IMG/VR virus record: IMGVR_UViG_3300025778_000024
Coordinates: 1 to 45,475 of that record
Origin: a virus
DNA: 45,475 nt
Reading direction: 5' to 3' (one strand)
The position numbers and the translations under genes are program-made. Within the stretch, counting starts at the first letter, position 1, and every line of letters starts with the position of its first letter. This document shows positions 4,138-13,848 of the stretch, piece by piece. Below the pieces are notes generated by a model, which saw only the letters and a list, made by a program, of their open reading frames with translations, was not told the DNA's origin and searched no databases.

Positions 4138-4480
4138 GCGTCCAGTATAGTGAACACTAGCAGGGTTAACGTGCAGGGTAGTGGACAGTAAGTACTCATG
4201 CGGGTGGGGCGCTACTCCCACTGGAACCTCAACGATGTATGGTAATTGCCATCCGCCATAACATAGCTTTACCATTAGCCGTATGGACTTGGGACGTGTA
4301 GGCGCTCGTAACTGGTTCCTGTTTACCTACAAATTGTTGCGTGTCTGCTTCCACGCCGCCGCATGAGTAAGTCCCATATAGGGATGTTTGCGTGAGATGT
4401 AAAGAGGTGGTTTAGGGGAATTTTGGGGATATCCGTGAGATGCAAGGGCGCATCCGTATCCGGGCCTCGCCCAATAGCGG

Positions 4481-4606: not shown

Positions 4607-4813
4607 ACGTAAGCTTGACCATACTGTAACGTAAGCTTCAGCATGACCATTGGTAAGCATGAGCAAGCGGGCCTTGGGTTTCCGTTACTGTTGCGTAAGC
4701 TTTACCATGCTGTAACGTAAGCACTAGCATGACGCACGTAAGCTTGACCATACTGTAACGTAAGCTTGACCATACGTAGCTTCAGCATGACGCACGTAAG
4801 CTGTAGCATGACG
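4607..4813. repeat. Phased operator/iteron array, about eight sites at ~21-22 bp
   Basis: Sites related to ACGTAAGCTTCAGCATGAC begin at 4607, 4629, 4693, 4715, 4736, 4758, 4774 and 4794, with a weaker copy near 4652. Most steps are 20-22 bp, close to two helical turns. Two versions occur: one with core AAGCTTGACCATACTGTA and one with AAGCTTCAGCATGACGC. The second version contains the 10-mer found in the early promoters. All copies point the same way. Possible roles are replication iterons, a partition site, a pac site next to the terminase small subunit gene, or a repressor sink. Confidence 0.7.
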
Positions 4814-4838
4814 CATGGTGATGCTTGCATGCTCGTGC

Positions 4839-4867
4839 TTGCGTGGTGAAGCTTATATTCCTATTAT
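4839..4867 (+). promoter_or_regulatory. Candidate promoter leaving the array toward the terminase gene
   Basis: TTGCGT (4839-4844), a 17-bp spacer and TATTAT (4862-4867) make a good sigma70-like promoter on the plus strand. The spacer contains GAAGCTT, the core of the array sites, as in the early promoters. It reads into the 3' end of the minus-strand terminase small subunit gene, so its transcript would be antisense to that gene or serve as a primer or regulatory RNA. No plus-strand gene follows directly. Confidence 0.45.
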
Positions 4868-4974
4868 GGAAACGGAACAAAAGGTGAAAACGTCACCAGT
4901 GGCAAACATCAGCATGTGATGATACAAGGTGGCCCAGAACAAGCAAAGCCTGTGTGCGGCCTTCTCTGTGGCTT

Positions 4975-6117: not shown

Positions 6118-6192
6118 TTGCCTGCCTGAAATATGAAAATCATGTGACGAATCAATCACATAGCTAATCTACCACGACTCACAAACCTAGCC

Positions 6193-6268
6193 AAGCTTAG
6201 CCATGCGTTTTAGACATACCAGATATGCTAAAGTTTATGTTGCAATAAGCATCAGCATGTGAGACAAA
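6193..6268. promoter_or_regulatory. Divergent control region: promoter plus three operator-like boxes
   Basis: On the plus strand TTGCAA (6240-6245), 17 bp and GACAAA (6263-6268) fit the promoter pattern used before the following early genes. The spacer holds AAGCATCAGCAT (6247-6258), one base from the standard box. Two further box-like sites, AAGCTTAGCCAT (6193-6204) and ATGCTAAAGTTT (6225-6236), lie on the side of the minus-strand terminase operon. The region separates divergent genes and may control both directions. Confidence 0.55.
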
Positions 6269-6300
6269 CAATCATCAACAACGCAAACGGAGTAACCAAC

Positions 6301-6600
6301 ATGGACCTCATTTCAGATCTCACGGCTCGCATTGAAGCTTACCGCGCAACCAACAAGCAGCCTTGCAAAAACTACGCAACCCGCGAAGCAGCAGAAAAGG
6401 CAACCGCGAAGATGGCACACGATGCCGCTGTCTATTTTGCAGTTGACGGTTCTTTAATCACGAAGCCTGCTCGTTACGTCGTGTTCTTCAACGAAGCTTG
6501 GGGCCGTTGGGTTGGCGCGATTGACCTGACTGAATTGCTCAACCGCCCAACAAGCACAGGAGGCTATGTTGGCTTCTGCACTGGGTTTTACACCTACTAA
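6301..6600 (+). CDS. Conserved hypothetical phage protein
   Basis: This 99-aa protein begins MDLISDLTARIEAYRATNKQ and has a C-terminal half with FFNEAWGRWVGAIDLTELL and GGYVGFCTGFYTY. Proteins with this GRWVGxIDLTELL ending recur in small early regions of phages; no function is known to me. The ATG at 6301 follows the shared leader AACGCAAACGGAG, so an in-frame ATG at 6259, inside the promoter, is rejected. Its own operator-bearing promoter precedes it. Confidence 0.7.
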   Translation: MDLISDLTARIEAYRATNKQPCKNYATREAAEKATAKMAHDAAVYFAVDGSLITKPARYVVFFNEAWGRWVGAIDLTELLNRPTSTGGYVGFCTGFYTY

Positions 6601-6604
6601 AAAG

Positions 6605-6657
6605 TTATCCACAGGCTTCAGCATGTGGTTGACATATGCTGAAGCTTCCTCTACAGT
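6605..6657 (+). promoter_or_regulatory. Promoter with perfect DnaA box and inverted operator pair
   Basis: TTATCCACA (6605-6613) is an exact consensus DnaA box. GCTTCAGCAT (6615-6624) follows, then TTGACA (6629-6634), a 17-bp spacer containing ATGCTGAAGC (6636-6645), and TACAGT (6652-6657). The two operator copies are perfect inverted repeats starting 21 bp apart, one upstream of and one inside the promoter. The gene at 6684 starts shortly downstream behind the usual AACAACGGAG leader. Confidence 0.7.
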
Positions 6658-6683
6658 GTTTATATCAACAACGGAGATAACAG

Positions 6684-6881
6684 ATGACAAAGACCTACAA
6701 TGTAGCAGATTACGCAATGCACACCGGAACACAGCTTGTCATCATCCTTGACCACCTCTCATGGTCTCCTGACAATGTTTGGGTTCACTTTGTCCACAAC
6801 AATGGCGACCACAATGGCCTGATGCGCCTCGTGCGCAAGGCAGACTTGTCAAACTACCGCACTGCAGACCTGTTGGCATAA
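6684..6881 (+). CDS. Hypothetical protein
   Basis: This 65-aa protein begins MTKTYNVADYAMHTGTQLVI and contains WVHFVHNNGDHNGLMRLVRK. It is probably a small mixed alpha/beta protein. It starts 9 bases after the GGAG of the shared leader and is directly controlled by the promoter at 6629-6657. The family is unknown. Confidence 0.65.
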   Translation: MTKTYNVADYAMHTGTQLVIILDHLSWSPDNVWVHFVHNNGDHNGLMRLVRKADLSNYRTADLLA

Positions 6882-6892
6882 GGAGATTTACC

Positions 6893-7156
6893 ATGCGTCA
6901 GATCGTAAAAGATATGCTCAAATGCGAAGAACTCTTCCACGTCTTCAACAATCAGCTATGCGTGGACGACAACAAAACACCTGACGAGTACTCTGATCAG
7001 GACATCATTGAAGAGGCCAAGTATCAGCTATCCCTTTATTACGAGAGTGGCACGACCAACAACGAGATGTTCACAGGCGAGCATACCCCAGAAGAGCAAG
7101 CACAGGCAAAGCGCGAAGTCCAACAGATCAAACGCTTCCTTGCAAAATACGCATAG
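6893..7156 (+). CDS. Hypothetical acidic helical protein
   Basis: This 87-aa protein begins MRQIVKDMLKCEELFHVFNN and is largely helical and acidic, with a Lys/Gln-rich C-terminal helix. The ATG at 6893 is chosen because AAGGAG (6880-6885) lies just upstream. Only 11 bp separate it from the stop of the gene before, so it is probably co-transcribed from the promoter at 6629. The family is unknown. Confidence 0.65.
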   Translation: MRQIVKDMLKCEELFHVFNNQLCVDDNKTPDEYSDQDIIEEAKYQLSLYYESGTTNNEMFTGEHTPEEQAQAKREVQQIKRFLAKYA

Positions 7157-7173
7157 CAGGTATGCAAACAAAC

Positions 7174-7215
7174 ATGCTAAAGCTTGTTGACACCTAGCAA
7201 ACTTTAGCATACAAC
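7174..7215 (+). promoter_or_regulatory. Operator-bearing early promoter
   Basis: TTGACA (7187-7192), a 17-bp spacer and TACAAC (7210-7215) form the promoter. ATGCTAAAGCTT (7174-7185) lies just upstream, and the spacer ends in the inverted partner AACTTTAGCAT (7200-7210), which runs into the -10 element. The leader AACAACGGAG follows, before the gene at 7242. Confidence 0.65.
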
Positions 7216-7241
7216 AGAGACATCAACAACGGAGCGACAAC

Positions 7242-7433
7242 ATGACCAAAGATTTTGAGATTGACCTAGCCTTCTACGCCAACATCAACAACGCGAAAGA
7301 ATGGCAAGCCCTTACTGACAAATACGTGTTTTGCATTGACCTTCTTGGCATCTCTGCGTGGGATCGTGATGCTGATGATAAGGTTAACGCCCTTGAGGAT
7401 GCCTTTGAAGCCATCCTTGCCACCGCTAATTGA
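7242..7433 (+). CDS. Hypothetical small acidic protein
   Basis: This 63-aa acidic protein begins MTKDFEIDLAFYANINNAKE and contains ISAWDRDADDKVNALEDAFE. It starts behind the shared leader and its own operator-bearing promoter. It is followed after 11 bp by a 54-aa gene. The family is unknown. Confidence 0.6.
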   Translation: MTKDFEIDLAFYANINNAKEWQALTDKYVFCIDLLGISAWDRDADDKVNALEDAFEAILATAN

Positions 7434-7444
7434 GGAGCATGAGC

Positions 7445-7609
7445 ATGACACTGGTCAAATCAGAGGGTCTCGCTACCCTGCACCGCAAGGAAGGCTTTGG
7501 CGGACGTTGCACGGCTCGCGTTGAGTGGGTCGTGTCCTACAATGGCCGCATCGTTGCCACCTACAACACCAAGCGCGAAGCTTTGGCCATGTTCGCAGCC
7601 CACGCATAA
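7445..7609 (+). CDS. Hypothetical 54-aa basic protein
   Basis: This short gene begins MTLVKSEGLATLHRKEGFGG and ends KREALAMFAAHA. The ATG at 7445 is 7 bases after GGAG; an ATG at 7439 lies too close to that site. It is a compact, basic, probably beta-alpha protein. The family is unknown. It shares the promoter at 7187 with the gene upstream. Confidence 0.55.
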   Translation: MTLVKSEGLATLHRKEGFGGRCTARVEWVVSYNGRIVATYNTKREALAMFAAHA

Positions 7610-7636
7610 TTGCATAACAGCCATGCAAAATAATAC

Positions 7637-7665
7637 TTTACACAAGCTTCAGCATATGCGATAAA
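7637..7665 (+). promoter_or_regulatory. Operator-bearing early promoter
   Basis: TTTACA (7637-7642), a 17-bp spacer and GATAAA (7660-7665) form the promoter, with AAGCTTCAGCAT (7644-7655) filling most of the spacer. An ACAACAGGAG leader lies downstream, before the gene at 7692. Confidence 0.65.
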
Positions 7666-7691
7666 CAGACATCAACAACAGGAGCAACAAC

Positions 7692-8030
7692 ATGAAACAC
7701 ACACCCGCACCTTGGTCTTTCTATTGTGAAGAAGATAGCCACGACAGTTGGATCGTTCAGAATGACGGCACCCAAGACAGTGACCGTGTTATCTGCCGCA
7801 TGGAACGCAACAAGCGTGTCAAGCATGAAGACAAGCGCAAATCAGACGATTACCGCATAGCCGCTGAAGAGGTCGCCAATGCCCGTCTGATGTCCTGCGC
7901 ACCTGAACTGCTAGACATGCTTCAGCGCCTGCGTCAGGTCATTGCTGAGCAACCATATCAAAGCGAGAACGAGGCGCTACATGTTACGCTATCGCAGTGT
8001 GATGCTTTGATTGACAAAGCTATCGCATAA
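7692..8030 (+). CDS. Conserved phage protein, HTPxPW / NARLxxxAPELL type
   Basis: This 112-aa protein opens MKHTPAPWSFYCEED and has EVANARLMSCAPELLDMLQRL near residues 60-80. That is the hallmark of a widespread small phage family that starts HTPGPW and ends with ANARLIAAAPELLEAL. The function of the family is unknown. The C-terminal helix (HVTLSQCDALIDKAIA) is also typical. It has its own operator-bearing promoter and the shared leader. Confidence 0.75.
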   Translation: MKHTPAPWSFYCEEDSHDSWIVQNDGTQDSDRVICRMERNKRVKHEDKRKSDDYRIAAEEVANARLMSCAPELLDMLQRLRQVIAEQPYQSENEALHVTLSQCDALIDKAIA

Positions 8031-8032
8031 CA

Positions 8033-8056
8033 GCTTCAGCATATATTTATCATATT
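8033..8056 (+). promoter_or_regulatory. Operator box with weak promoter
   Basis: GCTTCAGCAT (8033-8042) is followed by an AT-rich stretch with -10-like TCATAT (8050-8055) and then the leader AACAACGGAG before the gene at 8074. The best -35 at 17 bp is ATAACA (8027-8032), which is poor. The box itself is exact; the promoter is less certain than its siblings. Confidence 0.45.
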
Positions 8057-8073
8057 AACAACGGAGACCCAAC

Positions 8074-8364
8074 ATGACAAATCTTGTCACCCCAACAATC
8101 CACAACAACGGTACTGACGGACATGAACTGCTATTCCAAGTGCAACGTGTCTTGGCCTCATTGGCCCTTGTGCAAGCCGCAATGCGCGAAGCAAGCCCTC
8201 ATGCCAGAGATTACTACCCGCAAGGCTCTAATGCCACTGAGGAGGCCCGCAAGGCTTATTATGAGCGGTATGCTGAGGTTAATGTAATGCTAGAAGAATT
8301 TCAGGCATTGGCCTTCGCAATAGATGCCCAGAACGAGGCGCGCGCAGAAAGGTCAGCAGCATGA
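8074..8364 (+). CDS. Conserved hypothetical phage protein
   Basis: This 96-aa protein begins MTNLVTPTIHNNGTDGHELL and contains HARDYYPQG near residues 43-51, then a helical C-terminal half. Short proteins with the PTIHxNGT opening and the RDYYPQG motif are common in phage early regions, with no known role. It starts behind the shared leader and overlaps the next gene by 4 bp (ATGA). Confidence 0.75.
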   Translation: MTNLVTPTIHNNGTDGHELLFQVQRVLASLALVQAAMREASPHARDYYPQGSNATEEARKAYYERYAEVNVMLEEFQALAFAIDAQNEARAERSAA

Positions 8365-8468
8365 TCCGTGCAATAATTGACGACCTCATTGCCATTGTTT
8401 GCCTGTCAGCTTTCATGATGTGCATTTACGTATGGTCAACTGAAATAGGCGCATTTTTCTACGATTGA
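8361..8468 (+). CDS. Tiny membrane protein, 35 aa
   Basis: This gene begins MIRAIIDDLIAIVCLSAFMM and is nearly all one hydrophobic helix (residues 8-27), with a short polar end. The ATGA overlap with the gene before supports translation. Early phage membrane microproteins of this size often act on host membrane or superinfection, but no function can be claimed here. Confidence 0.5.
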   Translation: MIRAIIDDLIAIVCLSAFMMCIYVWSTEIGAFFYD

Positions 8469-8506
8469 GCCATGCAATAAAACATAGCAGGCATGCAAAA
8501 ACATGC

Positions 8507-8535
8507 TTGCAACATGCTAAAGCTTATGCAATAAA
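8507..8535 (+). promoter_or_regulatory. Operator-bearing early promoter
   Basis: TTGCAA (8507-8512), a 17-bp spacer and AATAAA (8530-8535) form the promoter, with ATGCTAAAGCTT (8514-8525) in the spacer. The upstream sequence CATAGCAGGCATGCAAA nearly matches that before the promoter at 7187, so a second upstream element may be shared. The leader downstream carries an insert with GCGCTGAGGCGC, a small hairpin. Confidence 0.65.
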
Positions 8536-8580
8536 CAGTCATCAACAACGCGCTGAGGCGCAAACAAACGGAGCAAGACA

Positions 8581-8997
8581 ATGGGTTACCTTTCCAACGA
8601 ACTTAAAGCCACCATCAAGGCCAATGTAAAGAATGTGTGCGCAAAGCATGGCATCAAGGCAACTGTTAGTGTTGAAGGCGGCATGACCCCAGTACTCAAT
8701 GTGAATATCAAATCAGGTGCAATTGATTTCATTAATAATTACAATGAAACTTATAACTCAAAATTGCACGGCCACAATCCTTTGTGGTCACCCGCAGAAG
8801 ATTACATTGATGTGAACACTTACCATTTTACCAACCACTTTAATGGCAAGGCATTAGATTTTCTGCGTGAACTGAATACGGTAATCAACGAAGGCAACCA
8901 CGACAACAGCGACAGCCAATCTGATTACTTTGATGTTGGTTGGTATTCCCGTATTCATGTAGGCCATTGGCACAAACCATACCAATTAGCAGCATAA
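8581..8997 (+). CDS. Conserved hypothetical phage protein
   Basis: This 138-aa protein begins MGYLSNELKATIKANVKNVC. Its first half has KHGIKATVSVEGGMTPVLNV, then IKSGAIDFINNYN. The second half has NHFNGKALDFLRELNTVINE, a GNHDNSDSQSDYFDVGWY stretch and a final HVGHWHKPY. I recall similar phage proteins ending with this DYFDVGWY-x-G-x-W-KPY block, all of unknown function. It follows its own operator-bearing promoter and a GGAG site. Confidence 0.7.
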   Translation: MGYLSNELKATIKANVKNVCAKHGIKATVSVEGGMTPVLNVNIKSGAIDFINNYNETYNSKLHGHNPLWSPAEDYIDVNTYHFTNHFNGKALDFLRELNTVINEGNHDNSDSQSDYFDVGWYSRIHVGHWHKPYQLAA

Positions 8998-8999
8998 CA

Positions 9000-9017
9000 G
9001 AGGGGCTTTGGCCCCTC
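9000..9017 (+). terminator. Hairpin after the 138-aa gene, possible terminator
   Basis: GAGGGGC (9000-9006) and GCCCCTC (9011-9017) form a 7-bp stem with a TTTG loop, two bases after the stop codon at 8995-8997. Only a weak T-poor sequence follows (ACTTACC), so it may attenuate or protect the RNA 3' end rather than fully terminate. The next gene, at 9042, has a leader but no clear operator promoter of its own. Confidence 0.45.
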
Positions 9018-9041
9018 ACTTACCAACAACGGAGAAAACAC

Positions 9042-9239
9042 ATGGACGCATACTTTCCCAATTCAGCAGAACGCGCAGACTTCCACGCTTGGCTTCGCGC
9101 CATCTTGCGTAACCCAGACGGTTACGTTGTGCGGTGGGCAAACTTCTTAATCAGTCAGCATGACTGGTCGTCAAGCAAGCGCATTGAGATCAGCCGCCAT
9201 CAAACCAAAAGCGGCAACCCAGAATTTTACACTTTCTAA
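9042..9239 (+). CDS. Hypothetical protein
   Basis: This 65-aa protein begins MDAYFPNSAERADFHAWLRA and ends SGNPEFYTF. It starts after the shared AACAACGGAG leader; an in-frame ATG at 8940 lies inside the previous gene and is rejected. It is probably helical at the N-terminus and beta at the end. The family is unknown. Confidence 0.65.
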   Translation: MDAYFPNSAERADFHAWLRAILRNPDGYVVRWANFLISQHDWSSSKRIEISRHQTKSGNPEFYTF

Positions 9240-9251
9240 CGGAGAAAACAC

Positions 9252-9452
9252 ATGTACATCCTTACTGACGTTTCATTACCACAAGCCAACGTAGTCCTTG
9301 CAGAGACCTCATCTGTGGCGGATGCCATCGCTGCGGCCTCAGAGTTTGGCAAGATTTATCTTGTGGAGGAAGATGAAGCCTACCCTGACCACTACGACCT
9401 GATCTCATGGAAGGGTAGCCTGTTCACCATTCAACCAAAGAAAGCGCGCTAA
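9252..9452 (+). CDS. Hypothetical protein
   Basis: This 66-aa protein begins MYILTDVSLPQANVVLAETS and is predicted as a small alpha/beta fold with an acidic centre (VEEDEAYPDHYD). The leader AACGGAGAAAACAC precedes it, nearly the same as before the gene at 9042. The family is unknown. Confidence 0.65.
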   Translation: MYILTDVSLPQANVVLAETSSVADAIAAASEFGKIYLVEEDEAYPDHYDLISWKGSLFTIQPKKAR

Positions 9453-9453
9453 C

Positions 9454-9690
9454 ATGAACCAAGAACTTGATCCCCTTGATCCTACTGGCCTTACCTTTGA
9501 TGGACACGGATCACGATACGGCCACCGGACCCGTCAATTCACCGTTACAGGGTTTCGCGACCGTGACCACGCAGTTGCATGGTCAGAGGCTTATTACAAG
9601 CGCGCAATGGGCTATGGTCCTTCCATGCGCATCCAAGACACGGAAGACGGTTACATAATTGATGTTAATGAAATGACATCCTGCGACTAA
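9454..9690 (+). CDS. Hypothetical protein
   Basis: This 78-aa protein begins MNQELDPLDPTGLTFDGHGS. It has two Arg/His-rich patches (SRYGHRTRQF and RDRDHAVAWSE) and ends VNEMTSCD. It starts one base after the previous stop and is translated with it. The family is unknown. Confidence 0.6.
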   Translation: MNQELDPLDPTGLTFDGHGSRYGHRTRQFTVTGFRDRDHAVAWSEAYYKRAMGYGPSMRIQDTEDGYIIDVNEMTSCD

Positions 9691-9697
9691 ATGACGC

Positions 9698-9726
9698 TTG
9701 ACACAAGCTTCAGCATCTGAAATAAC
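9698..9726 (+). promoter_or_regulatory. Operator-bearing early promoter
   Basis: TTGACA (9698-9703) is a perfect -35, followed by a 17-bp spacer with AAGCTTCAGCAT (9705-9716) and AATAAC (9721-9726). The leader AACGCAAACAACGGAG follows, before the gene at 9762. It is the last member of the series. Confidence 0.7.
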
Positions 9727-9761
9727 ACTCACACCAACAACGCAAACAACGGAGATAACAC

Positions 9762-10085
9762 ATGATCCCTTCAGTAGACTTCATTGGCATGTCAGATGCC
9801 GCACTTGTTGACGAAGCAGCCAAGCTTAATGCCCTTGCTGATGCCATCAAGGTCAAGCTTGACGAGGCCAAGGCCATCCTGCGCTCGCGTGGTGCAGGTG
9901 ACATTTTTGGTGACGCATACAAAGCCACCATTGGCAAGGAAAGCGTTTCGTGGTTGCTTAACAAAGACCTGATCACAAAAGACATGGGCGAGGCTTGGGT
10001 AATCAAGCATTCCAAGCAGGTGGTCAGCGCAGGCCGCGTGACCTTCAAGCCTCACGTTACATTGGGCGACATCAAGGTAGCATGA
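9762..10085 (+). CDS. Hypothetical protein
   Basis: This 107-aa protein begins MIPSVDFIGMSDAALVDEAA. The N-terminal half is a long helix with repeated Ala/Leu/Lys, probably a coiled coil (residues 10-45). The rest contains GDAYKATIGKESVSWLLNKD and VSAGRVTFKPHVTLG, plausibly a small beta domain. The layout resembles phage proteins that accompany recombination genes, but I cannot name the family. It has its own operator-bearing promoter. Confidence 0.65.
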   Translation: MIPSVDFIGMSDAALVDEAAKLNALADAIKVKLDEAKAILRSRGAGDIFGDAYKATIGKESVSWLLNKDLITKDMGEAWVIKHSKQVVSAGRVTFKPHVTLGDIKVA

Positions 10086-10252
10086 TCCTACCTTGGCCCA
10101 CCAAAAAGAAGAAAGCGCGAGACCTTAGCGGGCCTCGCGTTCGCATGTGGCTTATGATGCGTGACCCACCTGTTGCGTGTAACCCCGCCACTTTAGTAGT
10201 AATCAACATCACAAAGGATAAATCACATGGCTATCAAAACAGCACCAATTGA
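10082..10252 (+). CDS. Hypothetical basic 56-aa protein
   Basis: This small protein begins MILPWPTKKKKARDLSGPRV and is highly basic at the N-terminus. It starts in an ATGA overlap with the previous gene and overlaps the next by 26 bp. The coupling supports translation, but composition alone is not decisive. Confidence 0.5.
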   Translation: MILPWPTKKKKARDLSGPRVRMWLMMRDPPVACNPATLVVINITKDKSHGYQNSTN

Positions 10253-10553
10253 ACCAATCGCACCCATAACTAAGCAACCCCGTAAAGCCACAAAGAAGCC
10301 CGCTAAGGCCGTGCCTGCAAGCATCAGCATGCCAAGTAGCCCAGAGCCTGTTGTGGAGGCTGTGGAGGCTCCCAGTGGACGCAAGCGTTCTGGCTTCGCT
10401 TCCATGTCTAAGGATGTTCACCGTCAGGCCTCCGCAAGGGGTGGCGCAGCGCAGCCCGCAGACAAGCGTTACTTCGCACTGAATAAGGACGCAGCCCGCC
10501 TTGCCGGATCAAAGGGTGGAAAACACAGCCCAAAGAAGGATGCCGCACAATGA
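10227..10553 (+). CDS. Basic protein with KGG/GGxA-type motifs
   Basis: This 108-aa protein has a Pro/Ala/Lys-rich, probably disordered N-terminus (residues 1-48). It then has GFASMSKDVHRQASARGG, KRYFALNKDAARLAGSKGGK and a Lys-rich tail. The paired 'GFASM...R..A..GG' and 'A...AG.KGG' motifs resemble the short KGG (stress-induced, GsiB/con-10-like) repeat, which is also common in small phage proteins. It could be a nucleic-acid-binding or desiccation-type disordered protein; no function is proven. It is ATGA-coupled to the next gene. AAGCATCAGCAT, an operator variant, lies inside at 10319-10330. Confidence 0.7.
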   Translation: MAIKTAPIEPIAPITKQPRKATKKPAKAVPASISMPSSPEPVVEAVEAPSGRKRSGFASMSKDVHRQASARGGAAQPADKRYFALNKDAARLAGSKGGKHSPKKDAAQ

Positions 10554-10864
10554 CTGGCTATCAAAGCAAAAAGAAAAGCGCGCAGATCCGGTGGCTTGGC
10601 CCATATGCACCTGATGACCGACACGCTGATGACGTGACACTTGAATACATCATTGCCCTCCGCAATAAGGTTGCCATGCTAGAGGATGCCTTGCGTCAGG
10701 CTACTGTCCAGTTAAGTGAAGCCACGATGAAGGGTATTGTCCTTAAAAAGGGCATTCAGGATATTATGGACTTTTATTACACTCAAGACCCCAGTAGCCT
10801 GAACAACATAGAAACCATCCTGCGCTTGCGTGGTGCGATAGATGCAATGAGGCAAACCCCATGA
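10550..10864 (+). CDS. Hypothetical coiled-coil protein
   Basis: This 104-aa protein begins MTGYQSKKKSAQIRWLGPYA, and from residue 28 on it is a long helix with heptad-like spacing (YIIALRNKVAMLEDALRQAT). ATGA overlaps join it to both neighbours in a five-gene run ending at the GcrA-like gene. The family is unknown. Confidence 0.65.
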   Translation: MTGYQSKKKSAQIRWLGPYAPDDRHADDVTLEYIIALRNKVAMLEDALRQATVQLSEATMKGIVLKKGIQDIMDFYYTQDPSSLNNIETILRLRGAIDAMRQTP

Positions 10865-11091
10865 CGGAAATAAGGAAACCAATAAAAGCAGGTCCGTATA
10901 TGGCACGTTCTGCATCAGATAAGACAGAGGATTATCCCCTTTGGTATGTTGCCGGACCAGACGGAATACAAAACTATTTAACTGATCTTGGTGGCTGGAG
11001 AGAGGATAGGTCATCGCCCATGTTTGTCTCAAAAGAATTTGCTATTGCGCTTGCGGATAAATGGAATACCACATTAAAGGAGGGTGAGTGA
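10861..11091 (+). CDS. Hypothetical protein
   Basis: This 76-aa protein begins MTEIRKPIKAGPYMARSASD and ends ALADKWNTTLKEGE. The middle (LWYVAGPDGIQNYLTDLGGW) is typical of small phage proteins that substitute into a beta-hairpin fold. Its last residues, LKEGE, and the start overlap that follows mirror the gene end at 132-134 on the other side of the window. The function is unknown. Confidence 0.65.
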   Translation: MTEIRKPIKAGPYMARSASDKTEDYPLWYVAGPDGIQNYLTDLGGWREDRSSPMFVSKEFAIALADKWNTTLKEGE

Positions 11092-11291
11092 TGGGAAACG
11101 AAGATTTAATTAAACGCGTGACCGGTTTATCTCACGATTTAGAGAACCCGCAACAGGTCATCACCCTCATGATGGTGCTTGATGAACTGGACCGCCTTTA
11201 CAAAGTTGAACGAGGCGTTTGCCCCTGCAAAAAGCGCGATGCTGAATTGGAGCAAATGTTCGCCTACTTTGAGGAGGAACGCTCATGCTAA
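11091..11291 (+). CDS. Hypothetical protein with CPC motif
   Basis: This 66-aa protein begins MGNEDLIKRVTGLSHDLENP and has two helices plus a C-P-C pair (about residues 44-46) and a C-terminal Cys. The ATG at 11091 forms a TGATG overlap with the previous stop, so the GTG just before it is not needed. The family is unknown. Confidence 0.65.
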   Translation: MGNEDLIKRVTGLSHDLENPQQVITLMMVLDELDRLYKVERGVCPCKKRDAELEQMFAYFEEERSC

Positions 11292-11821
11292 TGCCGCGAG
11301 CCTTTAGTAAACGTGAGCATGAGGAATTGCTGCGCATGTGGCAAGAGGGTGTCCCTGCATCCACTATTGCGGCGACACTGGGCGAGGGTAGGACACGCAA
11401 CAGCATCTTGGGCTATGTTTACCGTCTCAGGCGAACTATGCCGGAATTGCAACGCATGCCCACCCCAAAGCGCACACGGTCTGGCAATCCTGCATCGCCT
11501 CGCGTACCAAAGCCACAAAGGCCTAAACCCATCCCTGTGGTGCAGGTTAATATCTTCACGCCCATCATTGAGGAGCCACCGCCAGAGGGTGGAGTGCCTT
11601 ATTTTGAGACCCGCCTATTCCAATGTAAATACATCCTCAACACGTCTAAGGATGCCCACAATATTAAGTGCTGCGGTGGCACCGTCCACAGGGGAAGTTC
11701 GTGGTGCCGCAAGCATTACGAGGAAGTTTTCACAGGACGTACTGACCACGAAACACAGGCCGTCCGTTTATTGTCTGGCAAAATTCCGGTGGCATCAAAG
11801 TTCCAGTTTCGTCAAAGGTAA
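11285..11821 (+). CDS. GcrA-family cell-cycle regulator homologue
   Basis: This 178-aa protein matches GcrA layout. Residues 6-50 form the helix-turn-helix with W-x-E-G-V-x-A-x-x-I-A-A-x-L-G and T-R-N-S-I-L-G-Y-V-Y-R-L. A Pro/Lys linker follows, and residues 112-148 carry the C-terminal module with C114, C129/C130, C141 and H144 (F-Q-C-K-Y-I, W-C-R-K-H-Y). In Caulobacter, GcrA binds sigma70 and CcrM-methylated promoters and sets S-phase genes. A phage copy could redirect host RNA polymerase. The ATG at 11285 is 7 bases after GAGGAGG. It overlaps the convergent metallophosphoesterase gene by 92 bp. It is the last gene of the early plus-strand block. Confidence 0.8.
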   Translation: MLMPRAFSKREHEELLRMWQEGVPASTIAATLGEGRTRNSILGYVYRLRRTMPELQRMPTPKRTRSGNPASPRVPKPQRPKPIPVVQVNIFTPIIEEPPPEGGVPYFETRLFQCKYILNTSKDAHNIKCCGGTVHRGSSWCRKHYEEVFTGRTDHETQAVRLLSGKIPVASKFQFRQR

Positions 11822-12677
11822 GCACGACGAAGCCTTGATGCGCACGATTTGGCGCACCCTCACCATATTGGAAAGCTTTGTGGTTAGGGTCGCCCAACAT
11901 GCCAGTCTCAACACCCCAATGCGATCCACGACGATTGCGCACTGCCGTTAGCTGTTGGGCATGCGTGTGGTTAGTTACCGTAGTCCATCCTGATACCTGC
12001 GCATTGTTGTAAGCCGCGTGAATACCCGCGCGAAACCTGTGCCGGATTTCCACATCGTCATTCAAATGAAGCGAATAAGAAAATTCCCACATTGGGAAAC
12101 GGTCAGCCAATCGCCCTGCATATTCTTCCAATTCAGCCGCCTGATTTGCGAGATAGTTATCGACCCGCATGTCATGATTACCTATGGTAAAGATGCGGCG
12201 CCTGCATTTAGGGAATTGATCCATCCACTTTTTGGCGGCGTCAATCTCAGCAGAGACTTTAGGAGCGGCTGACCCTAGCGTAGCCCCGTGACGACTTACT
12301 CTGGCCCCGTCAATGATATCACCATTAAGACATATAATTTGCGGCTTCAATTGCTTTGCAAGCTTAATGAAAGCTTTCATCATAACAGTTTCAACACCCG
12401 GCCAAATATGGGCATCTCCGCCAATAATGATACAGCCGTCAATAATTTCATCCGTCAAAACTTGCGCGTATAGCCATTGCGAACCTACACCGTCATTTTC
12501 TTTTTCATATCTTTCCCACAACTCTGGGAAACGTCTTTGGATCATGTCTAGTCTGGCTTGAACTGTTGAGGCGGGCATCGTCAGCACTCGCCCCGTAGCC
12601 CTTACAATTTTATTTTGGCGGTAATATTCTTTTAGTGTCTCTTCTAACACTTCTTTGGATAATGCGGGCATTGCCAT
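11730..12677 (-). CDS. Metallophosphoesterase (calcineurin-like) with HTH-like N-terminus
   Basis: This 315-aa protein has the metal-binding motifs of the calcineurin-like phosphoesterase fold in order: G-D-A-H (87-90), N-G-D-I-I-D (118-123), G-N-H-D (166-169), a conserved His around 220, and N-H-T-H (236-239). Family members hydrolyse phosphomono- or diesters, including nucleic acids and 2',3'-cyclic phosphates. Residues 1-60 look like a helix-turn-helix with TGRVLTMPASTVQARLDMI, which suggests targeting to DNA. The start at 12677 has a GAGGA site upstream. The gene is transcribed against its neighbours. A DNA or RNA processing role is likely; the substrate is unknown. Confidence 0.8.
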   Translation of the reverse strand: MAMPALSKEVLEETLKEYYRQNKIVRATGRVLTMPASTVQARLDMIQRRFPELWERYEKENDGVGSQWLYAQVLTDEIIDGCIIIGGDAHIWPGVETVMMKAFIKLAKQLKPQIICLNGDIIDGARVSRHGATLGSAAPKVSAEIDAAKKWMDQFPKCRRRIFTIGNHDMRVDNYLANQAAELEEYAGRLADRFPMWEFSYSLHLNDDVEIRHRFRAGIHAAYNNAQVSGWTTVTNHTHAQQLTAVRNRRGSHWGVETGMLGDPNHKAFQYGEGAPNRAHQGFVVLTFDETGTLMPPEFCQTINGRPVFRGQYVL

Positions 12678-12761
12678 TTTTAAACATCCTCATTTGACGT
12701 TGGACGCAAAATACACAATATCAGCGTTATGACAAGGGTTTGACGAAACAGGGTTAATGAC
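12678..12761. promoter_or_regulatory. Divergent intergenic region
   Basis: This 84-bp AT-rich segment lies between the metallophosphoesterase gene (minus) and a small HTH gene (plus). Minus-strand TTGTCA with TATTTT at 16 bp, and plus-strand TTGACG with CAATAT at 16 bp, are the best promoter candidates; they overlap each other. No exact GCTTCAGCAT box is present. The HTH protein encoded alongside could act here. Confidence 0.4.
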
Positions 12762-12998
12762 ATGACTGCTGATGAATTTACTGCGTTTGTGAATTACGTG
12801 AAGGAAGAGTTTGGCGCTTGGGAATACCAACTCGCCAAATCAATGGGCGTGACACGCCAGACAGTTGCGCAATGGAAGCTTAAGGGGTCACCCGCTTGGG
12901 CTGACCTTGTGGCGGCTGCCGTGGTCAACGGGCTTGATCCTTGGAAACCTGAGCCAGAACATCTGCCCAATCCTGCCCTACGGTCTCAGGGAACATAA
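12762..12998 (+). CDS. Small HTH protein, Cro/YdaS-like
   Basis: This 78-aa protein has a helix-turn-helix at about residues 18-45 (YQLAKSMGVTRQTVAQWKLK), with the short 'V-T-R-Q-T-V-A-Q-W' recognition helix typical of Cro and YdaS-type regulators. A hydrophobic helix follows (WADLVAAAVVNG). It is transcribed alone and its last 74 bp overlap the convergent primase gene. It is a candidate early/late switch regulator; its operators are unknown. Confidence 0.65.
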   Translation: MTADEFTAFVNYVKEEFGAWEYQLAKSMGVTRQTVAQWKLKGSPAWADLVAAAVVNGLDPWKPEPEHLPNPALRSQGT

Positions 12999-13848
12999 CC
13001 GTCACATCAAGCTTGCGCTGAAGCTTCAAGCGTCTGGCCAATGAATATGATGCGGCATGGCCAGTGAAGCTTTCGTCGTTATCACCAAAAACTATAACAC
13101 TCCGTGCTACAGGTGGCGGCTCCCACTTGGCTAGGTTGTGGGCATTGATGGCTGACCACACGGGTATGCCATGCATCACGGAGGCTGCTATAGCTGTCTC
13201 AATGCCTTCAGCAATGCCCATGATATCATCTGCCGGAGCAAGCCTGATGGCAGACCCCGCAGGCACCTTGCCGGACATGATCCGTTTGGGCGTGTCAATT
13301 TTGGCACGGAATCCATTGTGGTCCAAATAGGTCAAGTGGACATTGTGAGCCTTGTTGTCTGGCCCCACAATCTGGCTGACCATCAGGCAGTGGTTCCGGC
13401 CAATAAACTCCCTGACCGATTTAGAAGCCCACACAAGGCCAAGGCGCCTCTGTAGGTACTTCGCCACTGGCCCATCCTTGGAAGGCCTTCCAGAGGTCTC
13501 CCAAATGCGTTTAATGGCCTGACGGTGGACTTCCTCCTGCTCCCTGTCTTTGGGGGATAGGACAGGCCTTTCGCCCATGATGGATGCCACCTGCTTTGCA
13601 ACCTGAGCAAAAGTCTGCCCAGTCACCATTTGCGCAAGCTTGAAACCATCATTAGAGCCACACACGGAACAGATGTAAACCCCATCTCCGTTGCGGTCTG
13701 TAAACCGGAAACGATCCTTGCCTCCACACATTGGGCAAGGGGTATGCTTACCCGTCAGATACTTTGCATCAACGCCAAACTGCGGAAGAAGTTCCCGCCA
13801 GTGGCCCCGCGCTATATCCGCTGTTTGTCGTTCTTGATTGTTTTTCAC
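12925..13848 (-). CDS. DNA primase with Zn ribbon and Toprim domain
   Basis: This 307-aa protein would make RNA primers at the phage fork. Residues 38-63 form a CHC2-type zinc ribbon with C-P-M-C-G (38-42) and C-S-V-C (60-63) around K-D-R-F-R-F. Residues 205-300 form a Toprim domain with E-G-I-E-T-A (214-219, catalytic Glu) and G-D-N-D (255-258, metal-binding acids). It has no helicase domain of its own; the SF2 helicase gene lies directly upstream in the same operon and its 3' end overlaps this start by 80 bp. The N-terminal ARGHWRELLPQFG is typical of the start of phage primases, so the overlapping start is accepted. Confidence 0.85.
   Translation of the reverse strand: MKNNQERQTADIARGHWRELLPQFGVDAKYLTGKHTPCPMCGGKDRFRFTDRNGDGVYICSVCGSNDGFKLAQMVTGQTFAQVAKQVASIMGERPVLSPKDREQEEVHRQAIKRIWETSGRPSKDGPVAKYLQRRLGLVWASKSVREFIGRNHCLMVSQIVGPDNKAHNVHLTYLDHNGFRAKIDTPKRIMSGKVPAGSAIRLAPADDIMGIAEGIETAIAASVMHGIPVWSAINAHNLAKWEPPPVARSVIVFGDNDESFTGHAASYSLARRLKLQRKLDVTVMFPETVGQDWADVLAQVSKDQAR

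Follow-up and report, generated by a model that had tools for sequence, protein, structure and literature searches.

The window, by which we denote the whole 45,475-bp stretch analysed, is an IMG/VR virus record that encodes an Sf6-type small terminase, a primase, a helicase, RusA and an Erf-type annealing protein, together with a protein made up of DnaA domain IV and a GcrA-like protein. Comparison with a phage reference collection yielded nothing beyond a short 60-80% match within one stretch. The site of CcrM methylation, GANTC, was depleted about twofold in the window (51 observed versus 105 expected) and was missing from a 7.1-kb early region (about 6177-13308), where 16 were expected; several relatives are likewise depleted. 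The GcrA-like gene and the GANTC depletion fit an alphaproteobacterium with CcrM as the probable host.

Positions 6605-6657 carry a promoter composed of TTGACA (6629-6634), a 17-bp spacer and TACAGT (6652-6657), with 10 of 12 consensus matches. The original prediction of TTATCCACA at 6605-6613, of GCTTCAGCAT on the + strand at 6615-6624 and of the inverted ATGCTGAAGC at 6636-6645, starting 21 bp later, proved exact in every element. The description of the region as an early promoter with two operators in inverted orientation, one of them in the spacer, was upheld, and the operators belong to a phage-wide family. TTATCCACA on the + strand is a perfect R-type DnaA box and the sole perfect copy in the window; it satisfies the TTWTNCACA consensus near a promoter, adjoins the operator at 6613-6624 and stands 1 bp off the operator core.

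Features of the 6605-6657 promoter, related early promoters and relevant genes (window coordinates).
Feature	Position	Strand	Remarks
Upstream gene, 99 aa	6301-6600	+	Stop codon is the left edge of the cassette common with L013
Perfect R-type DnaA box TTATCCACA	6605-6613	+	About -59 to -51 relative to the inferred start site
op1, upstream operator AGGCTTCAGCAT	6613-6624	+	L042 counterpart AAGCATGAGCAG at 8069
-35 hexamer TTGACA	6629-6634	+	Aligned with other promoters of the family
op2, spacer operator AAGCTTCAGCAT	6636-6647	-	Inverted relative to op1
-10 hexamer TACAGT	6652-6657	+	
Conserved leader ATCAACAACGGAG.. with ribosome-binding site	6663-6683	+	Common to early promoters (families D2, D4, D7)
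Gene driven by the 6629 promoter, 65 aa	6684-6881	+	L002 counterpart behind a different, box-less promoter
Early promoter TTGCAA-17-GACAAA, spacer operator	6240-6268	+	
Early promoter: site B, upstream operator 7174-7185, TTGACA 7187, spacer operator 7199-7210	7151-7215	+	Same layout in L013 and L002
Early promoter: site B 7612-7626, TTTACA 7637, spacer operator 7644-7655	7612-7665	+	
Early promoter: site-B-like element, TTGCAA 8507, spacer operator 8514-8525	8483-8535	+	
Early promoter TTGACA, spacer operator 9705-9716, without site B	9694-9727	+	
Iteron-like array of the operator motif, about 13 copies mostly 21-22 bp apart, some of the last ones inverted	4611-4915	+	
GcrA-like protein	11285-11821	+	PF07750, 47.7 bits; conserved in L002, L042, L043
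DnaA domain-IV-only protein, 139 aa, altered base-contact residues	15491-15910	-	PF08299, 40 bits
Cro-like HTH_3 protein, 74 aa	16253-16477	-	PF01381, E=2.7e-11

The operator motif is spread over the phage far beyond this promoter. With at most one mismatch, AAGCWTNASCAT was found at 44 sites in the window versus 0-5 in 12 first-order Markov resamplings, and GCTTCAGCAT with at most two mismatches gave 116 matches against a shuffle mean of 48.5, a number attained by no shuffle. The operator is an imperfect 12-bp palindrome (AAGCTTCAGCAT in the window and in the relatives L013 and L002) and, in most early promoters (6629, 6240, 7187, 7637, 8507 and about 9695), always has the same position within the 17-bp spacer; one more site, at 8031, precedes a gene without a clear promoter. 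The iteron-like array occupies non-coding DNA next to the small terminase gene and has counterparts in L013 (2417-2705), L002 (6339-6593) and, with a changed motif, L042 (6054-6241). The L042 array carries AAGCATGACCAT and AAGCATGAGCAT and its promoters AAGCATGAGCAT and AAGCATCAGCAT, so that the motif has shifted in the same manner in both, while the promoters of L043 carry AAGCATAAGCAT as operator. Such joint change of array and promoters between phages is as expected for one binding protein. Scans with the iteron pattern returned, besides L013 and L002, three unrelated contigs, and scans with the promoter pattern returned known relatives and chance matches and nothing else. With operators at many promoters far above chance, co-variation of the motif and a phage protein of suitable family, the 6605-6657 promoter and its operator pair are, as judged from sequence, members of a phage operator regulon of a known kind.

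Many of the early promoters also carry a second conserved element upstream of the -35 hexamer, site B (GCATNNCAGNNATGC), usually 10 or 21 bp from it; the two distances are one helical turn apart, as expected of a site that must face the polymerase. Site B was located in the window (7151-7165 and 7612-7626), L013 (4885 and 5998), L002 (7909, 8469 and 9513), L042 (7699), L043 (1171 and 1985) and, reverse-complemented, in L056 (2373) and L060 (959); it is absent at the 6605 promoter. Moreover, the small early genes are reshuffled among the window (6216-9760), L013, L002, L042 and L043 while the promoter segments between them persist, and the promoters may thus serve as recombination joints.

By family membership only, the best candidate for the operator-binding protein is most likely the Cro-like HTH_3 protein. 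It was the only classical repressor-like protein among the proteins scanned, it is conserved in L002, L042, L043 and L044 and in every relative in which the replication region was inspected for its presence, and its recognition helix is nearly constant in L002, L042 and L043; no clear operator was found at the start of its own operon. In the mechanism we propose, a small phage-encoded DNA-binding protein, most likely this one, would bind the palindrome AAGCTTCAGCAT. Since most early promoters have the operator between their -35 and -10 hexamers, the bound protein should exclude RNA polymerase, and the early promoters would be turned off together. At 6605-6657 the second, inverted operator just upstream of the -35 hexamer should provide tighter or cooperative repression. 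We infer repression rather than activation from the position of the sites.

The DnaA box stands apart from this machinery in its distribution. One perfect box was observed in the window and 0.40-0.41 were expected under a Markov model, so the mere presence of TTATCCACA is not significant. The a-priori chance of a box within about 30 bp upstream of the -35 hexamer at any of the seven early promoters is about 0.2%, rising to 0.6% if 90 bp around each of the seven counts, both being post hoc figures that ignore the many other motifs a reader could have noticed. L013, with DNA 84-95% identical to the window, contains the promoter cassette at 4217-4318 (93% identical) with the box intact, flanked on both sides by genes that differ from those of the window; three substitutions lie outside every one of the elements. 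Retention of the box in L013 was considered as a sign of selection and rejected: three other intergenic promoters common to L013 and the window are 96-99% identical, and the lack of change over nine bases is therefore not informative. In L002 the same downstream gene (its protein 94% identical) follows another promoter, which retains the operator in the spacer and lacks the box, and the 35-kb L002 record contains no TTATCCACA. A promoter built alike in L042 has the inverted operator pair at a spacing of 22 bp (21 bp in the window) with an AT-rich stretch and no DnaA box in the place of the box. Among orthologous or like-built promoters, the box thus occurs in L013 only, and is absent from those of L042 and L002.

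The records of L042 (53.5 kb), L043 (44.1 kb) and L044 (15.3 kb) contain no TTATNCACA at all, and 15 further records found via the DnaA-domain protein contain no TTATCCACA. Altogether, TTATCCACA was found nowhere in the 19 relative records more distant than L013 (about 511 kb, partly redundant), many of which are fragments, some near-duplicates, with early promoters visible in only some. Across the family, perfect DnaA boxes were not significantly depleted (0 observed versus 1.6 expected in 208 kb). A scan of viral contigs for the combination of box and operator returned L013 and otherwise only contigs that show no similarity to the window, the majority representing one repeated sequence context. 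In the records compared, the operator pair has been retained better than the box. As a sequence the box is real, whereas its role as a conserved control element is unsupported.

The earlier proposal that the phage DnaA-domain protein is the reader of the box, tying early transcription to phage replication, now appears highly improbable. The gene for this protein does lie next to those for RusA, the helicase and the primase, which would suit such coupling. However, out of the six residues contacting bases in DnaA (R399, P423, D433, H434, T435 and H439; PMC7561715), five are changed in the window protein (R399K, P423S, D433S, T435S and H439Y) and H434 alone is kept, as mapped by sequence alignment to E. 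coli DnaA domain IV (1j1v) and phage relatives rather than on a structure, and the protein is therefore an unlikely reader of TTATCCACA. Nor does TTATCCACA occur in the records of those relatives in which the protein is retained. The distant DnaA-domain protein of L044 (5315-5743, + strand) retains DHTTV and the equivalent of R399 where those of closer phages have THSTV or SHSTV, and binding specificity may thus have shifted within this phage group. Bacterial genomes searched for relatives of the DnaA-domain protein yielded none.

Host DnaA, the other reader originally put forward, is the likelier of the two. TTATCCACA is a perfect, high-affinity box in E. coli (PMC5043019), and from its sequence the 9-mer at 6605-6613 would probably be bound by host DnaA. 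Whether such binding modulates the promoter jointly with the phage operator protein on op1, so that the gene follows the DnaA level or the replication state, is another matter, and we regard this as a real if unlikely option. It is suggested by a perfect consensus box placed in a promoter only one bp off an operator core, by the low a-priori chance of that placement and by the intact box in an L013 cassette whose flanking genes both differ. There are also precedents: DnaA stimulates lambda pR (PMC7466680), DnaA is a transcription regulator in Caulobacter (PMC3193534), and in Alphaproteobacteria phage promoters come under the control of host CtrA (PMC9437464), this being the host type indicated here by the GcrA-like gene and GANTC depletion. 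On the other hand, the box is missing from the like-built L042 promoter and occurs neither in L002 nor, L013 apart, in any other relative record, the high identity of most L013 promoters deprives its retention of meaning as a sign of selection, DnaA sites were not unevenly distributed in the alphaproteobacterial phages surveyed in one study (PMC9437464), and a single box with no further boxes makes a weak case. Doubtful, too, is that host DnaA, a cell-cycle regulator in Alphaproteobacteria, binds beside the phage repressor and gates one early gene by host replication state, a trait that this phage lineage would have gained recently with a mobile promoter cassette.

Two further explanations concern the operators rather than the box. 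The inverted pair might be mainly a hairpin, a terminator of the upstream gene joined to the promoter, instead of two protein sites. Its RNA fold is far stronger than that of shuffled sequences (z of -4.3 in the window, -3.8 in L013 and -3.9 in L042), the hairpin begins about 13 nt past the upstream stop codon, the substitution of L013 at 6628 falls in the loop, and in L042 the hairpin is flanked by A- and U-rich tracts in the manner of a terminator. But the same 12-mer stands alone in the spacers of other promoters and is directly repeated in the array, settings in which it makes no hairpin, and the hairpin of the window lacks a T-run and was not called a terminator. Since any inverted operator pair would be expected to fold in this way, the hairpin is a possible second role of the operators and no alternative to them, and as the main function it seems quite improbable.

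The direct repeats of the operator, which lie in non-coding DNA at a spacing of about 22 bp and are conserved in four phages, resemble the iterons of plasmids, and the array and operators might be bound by a phage replication initiator that also regulates the early promoters, with the DnaA box as companion site. Plasmid rep promoters carry inverted iteron copies, and iteron-binding Rep proteins also regulate promoters; the inverted operator copies in the phage promoters resemble this arrangement. Yet no Rep-type protein was present among the proteins scanned, the box lies 1.7 kb away from the array, and there is no DnaA box inside it, all of which makes this reading improbable. GC skew showed no extremum at the array, and neither an initiator nor an AT-rich unwinding region was identified. 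The array is a possible candidate for an origin of replication or for another kind of multi-copy binding site.

On balance we favour, with some confidence, the view that 6605-6657 belongs to a phage-wide operator regulon as one of its early promoters and is most likely bound by the HTH_3 protein, with the box as an incidental or accessory element; the box would then be a lineage-specific addition at the edge of the promoter cassette, outside the conserved machinery. We infer only a small effect for the box, as an element that is most likely incidental or at most accessory. A link to replication control through the box, as claimed in the original prediction, is possible, and on present evidence the box should not be cited as connecting replication and transcription. 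The operator family, the array and their co-variation form a cleanly testable regulon in a phage group that is uncharacterised and whose hosts are probably Alphaproteobacteria.

Among known systems, phage phiC31 has conserved inverted repeats that constitute a multi-operator repressor regulon. As with these repeats and the stoperators of mycobacteriophages, one short operator recurs in the window, both at many of the early promoters and in other parts of the genome. The stoperators, in contrast to the palindrome here, are asymmetric (PMC9283540). The operator described here differs from both systems in being an imperfect 12-bp palindrome inside the -35/-10 spacer that also forms an array with a spacing of about 22 bp, and in having a 74-aa Cro-like protein as its candidate binder. 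Phage T4 reportedly possesses mobile early-promoter stem-loop cassettes, and the comparison of the window with L013 similarly reveals an inverted-repeat promoter persisting between small early genes while its flanks differ, although here the repeat is a phage operator and only a single clear intact cassette between differing genes was examined. The stimulation of lambda pR by DnaA (PMC7466680) offers a parallel, in that a replication initiator of the host acts on an early promoter of a phage, as might happen here, but the window has a single box, upstream of the -35 hexamer beside an operator and not conserved in the family. Phage promoters under CtrA control, associated with lytic deferment, share with the window a site for a host cell-cycle regulator and a probable alphaproteobacterial host; that study tested CtrA binding and found DnaA sites not unevenly distributed in phage genomes (PMC9437464), whereas the window presents one DnaA box known from sequence alone. 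Should the box be functional, it would show that a phage can respond to the replication initiator of its host through an early promoter, a case to set alongside the known one of CtrA.
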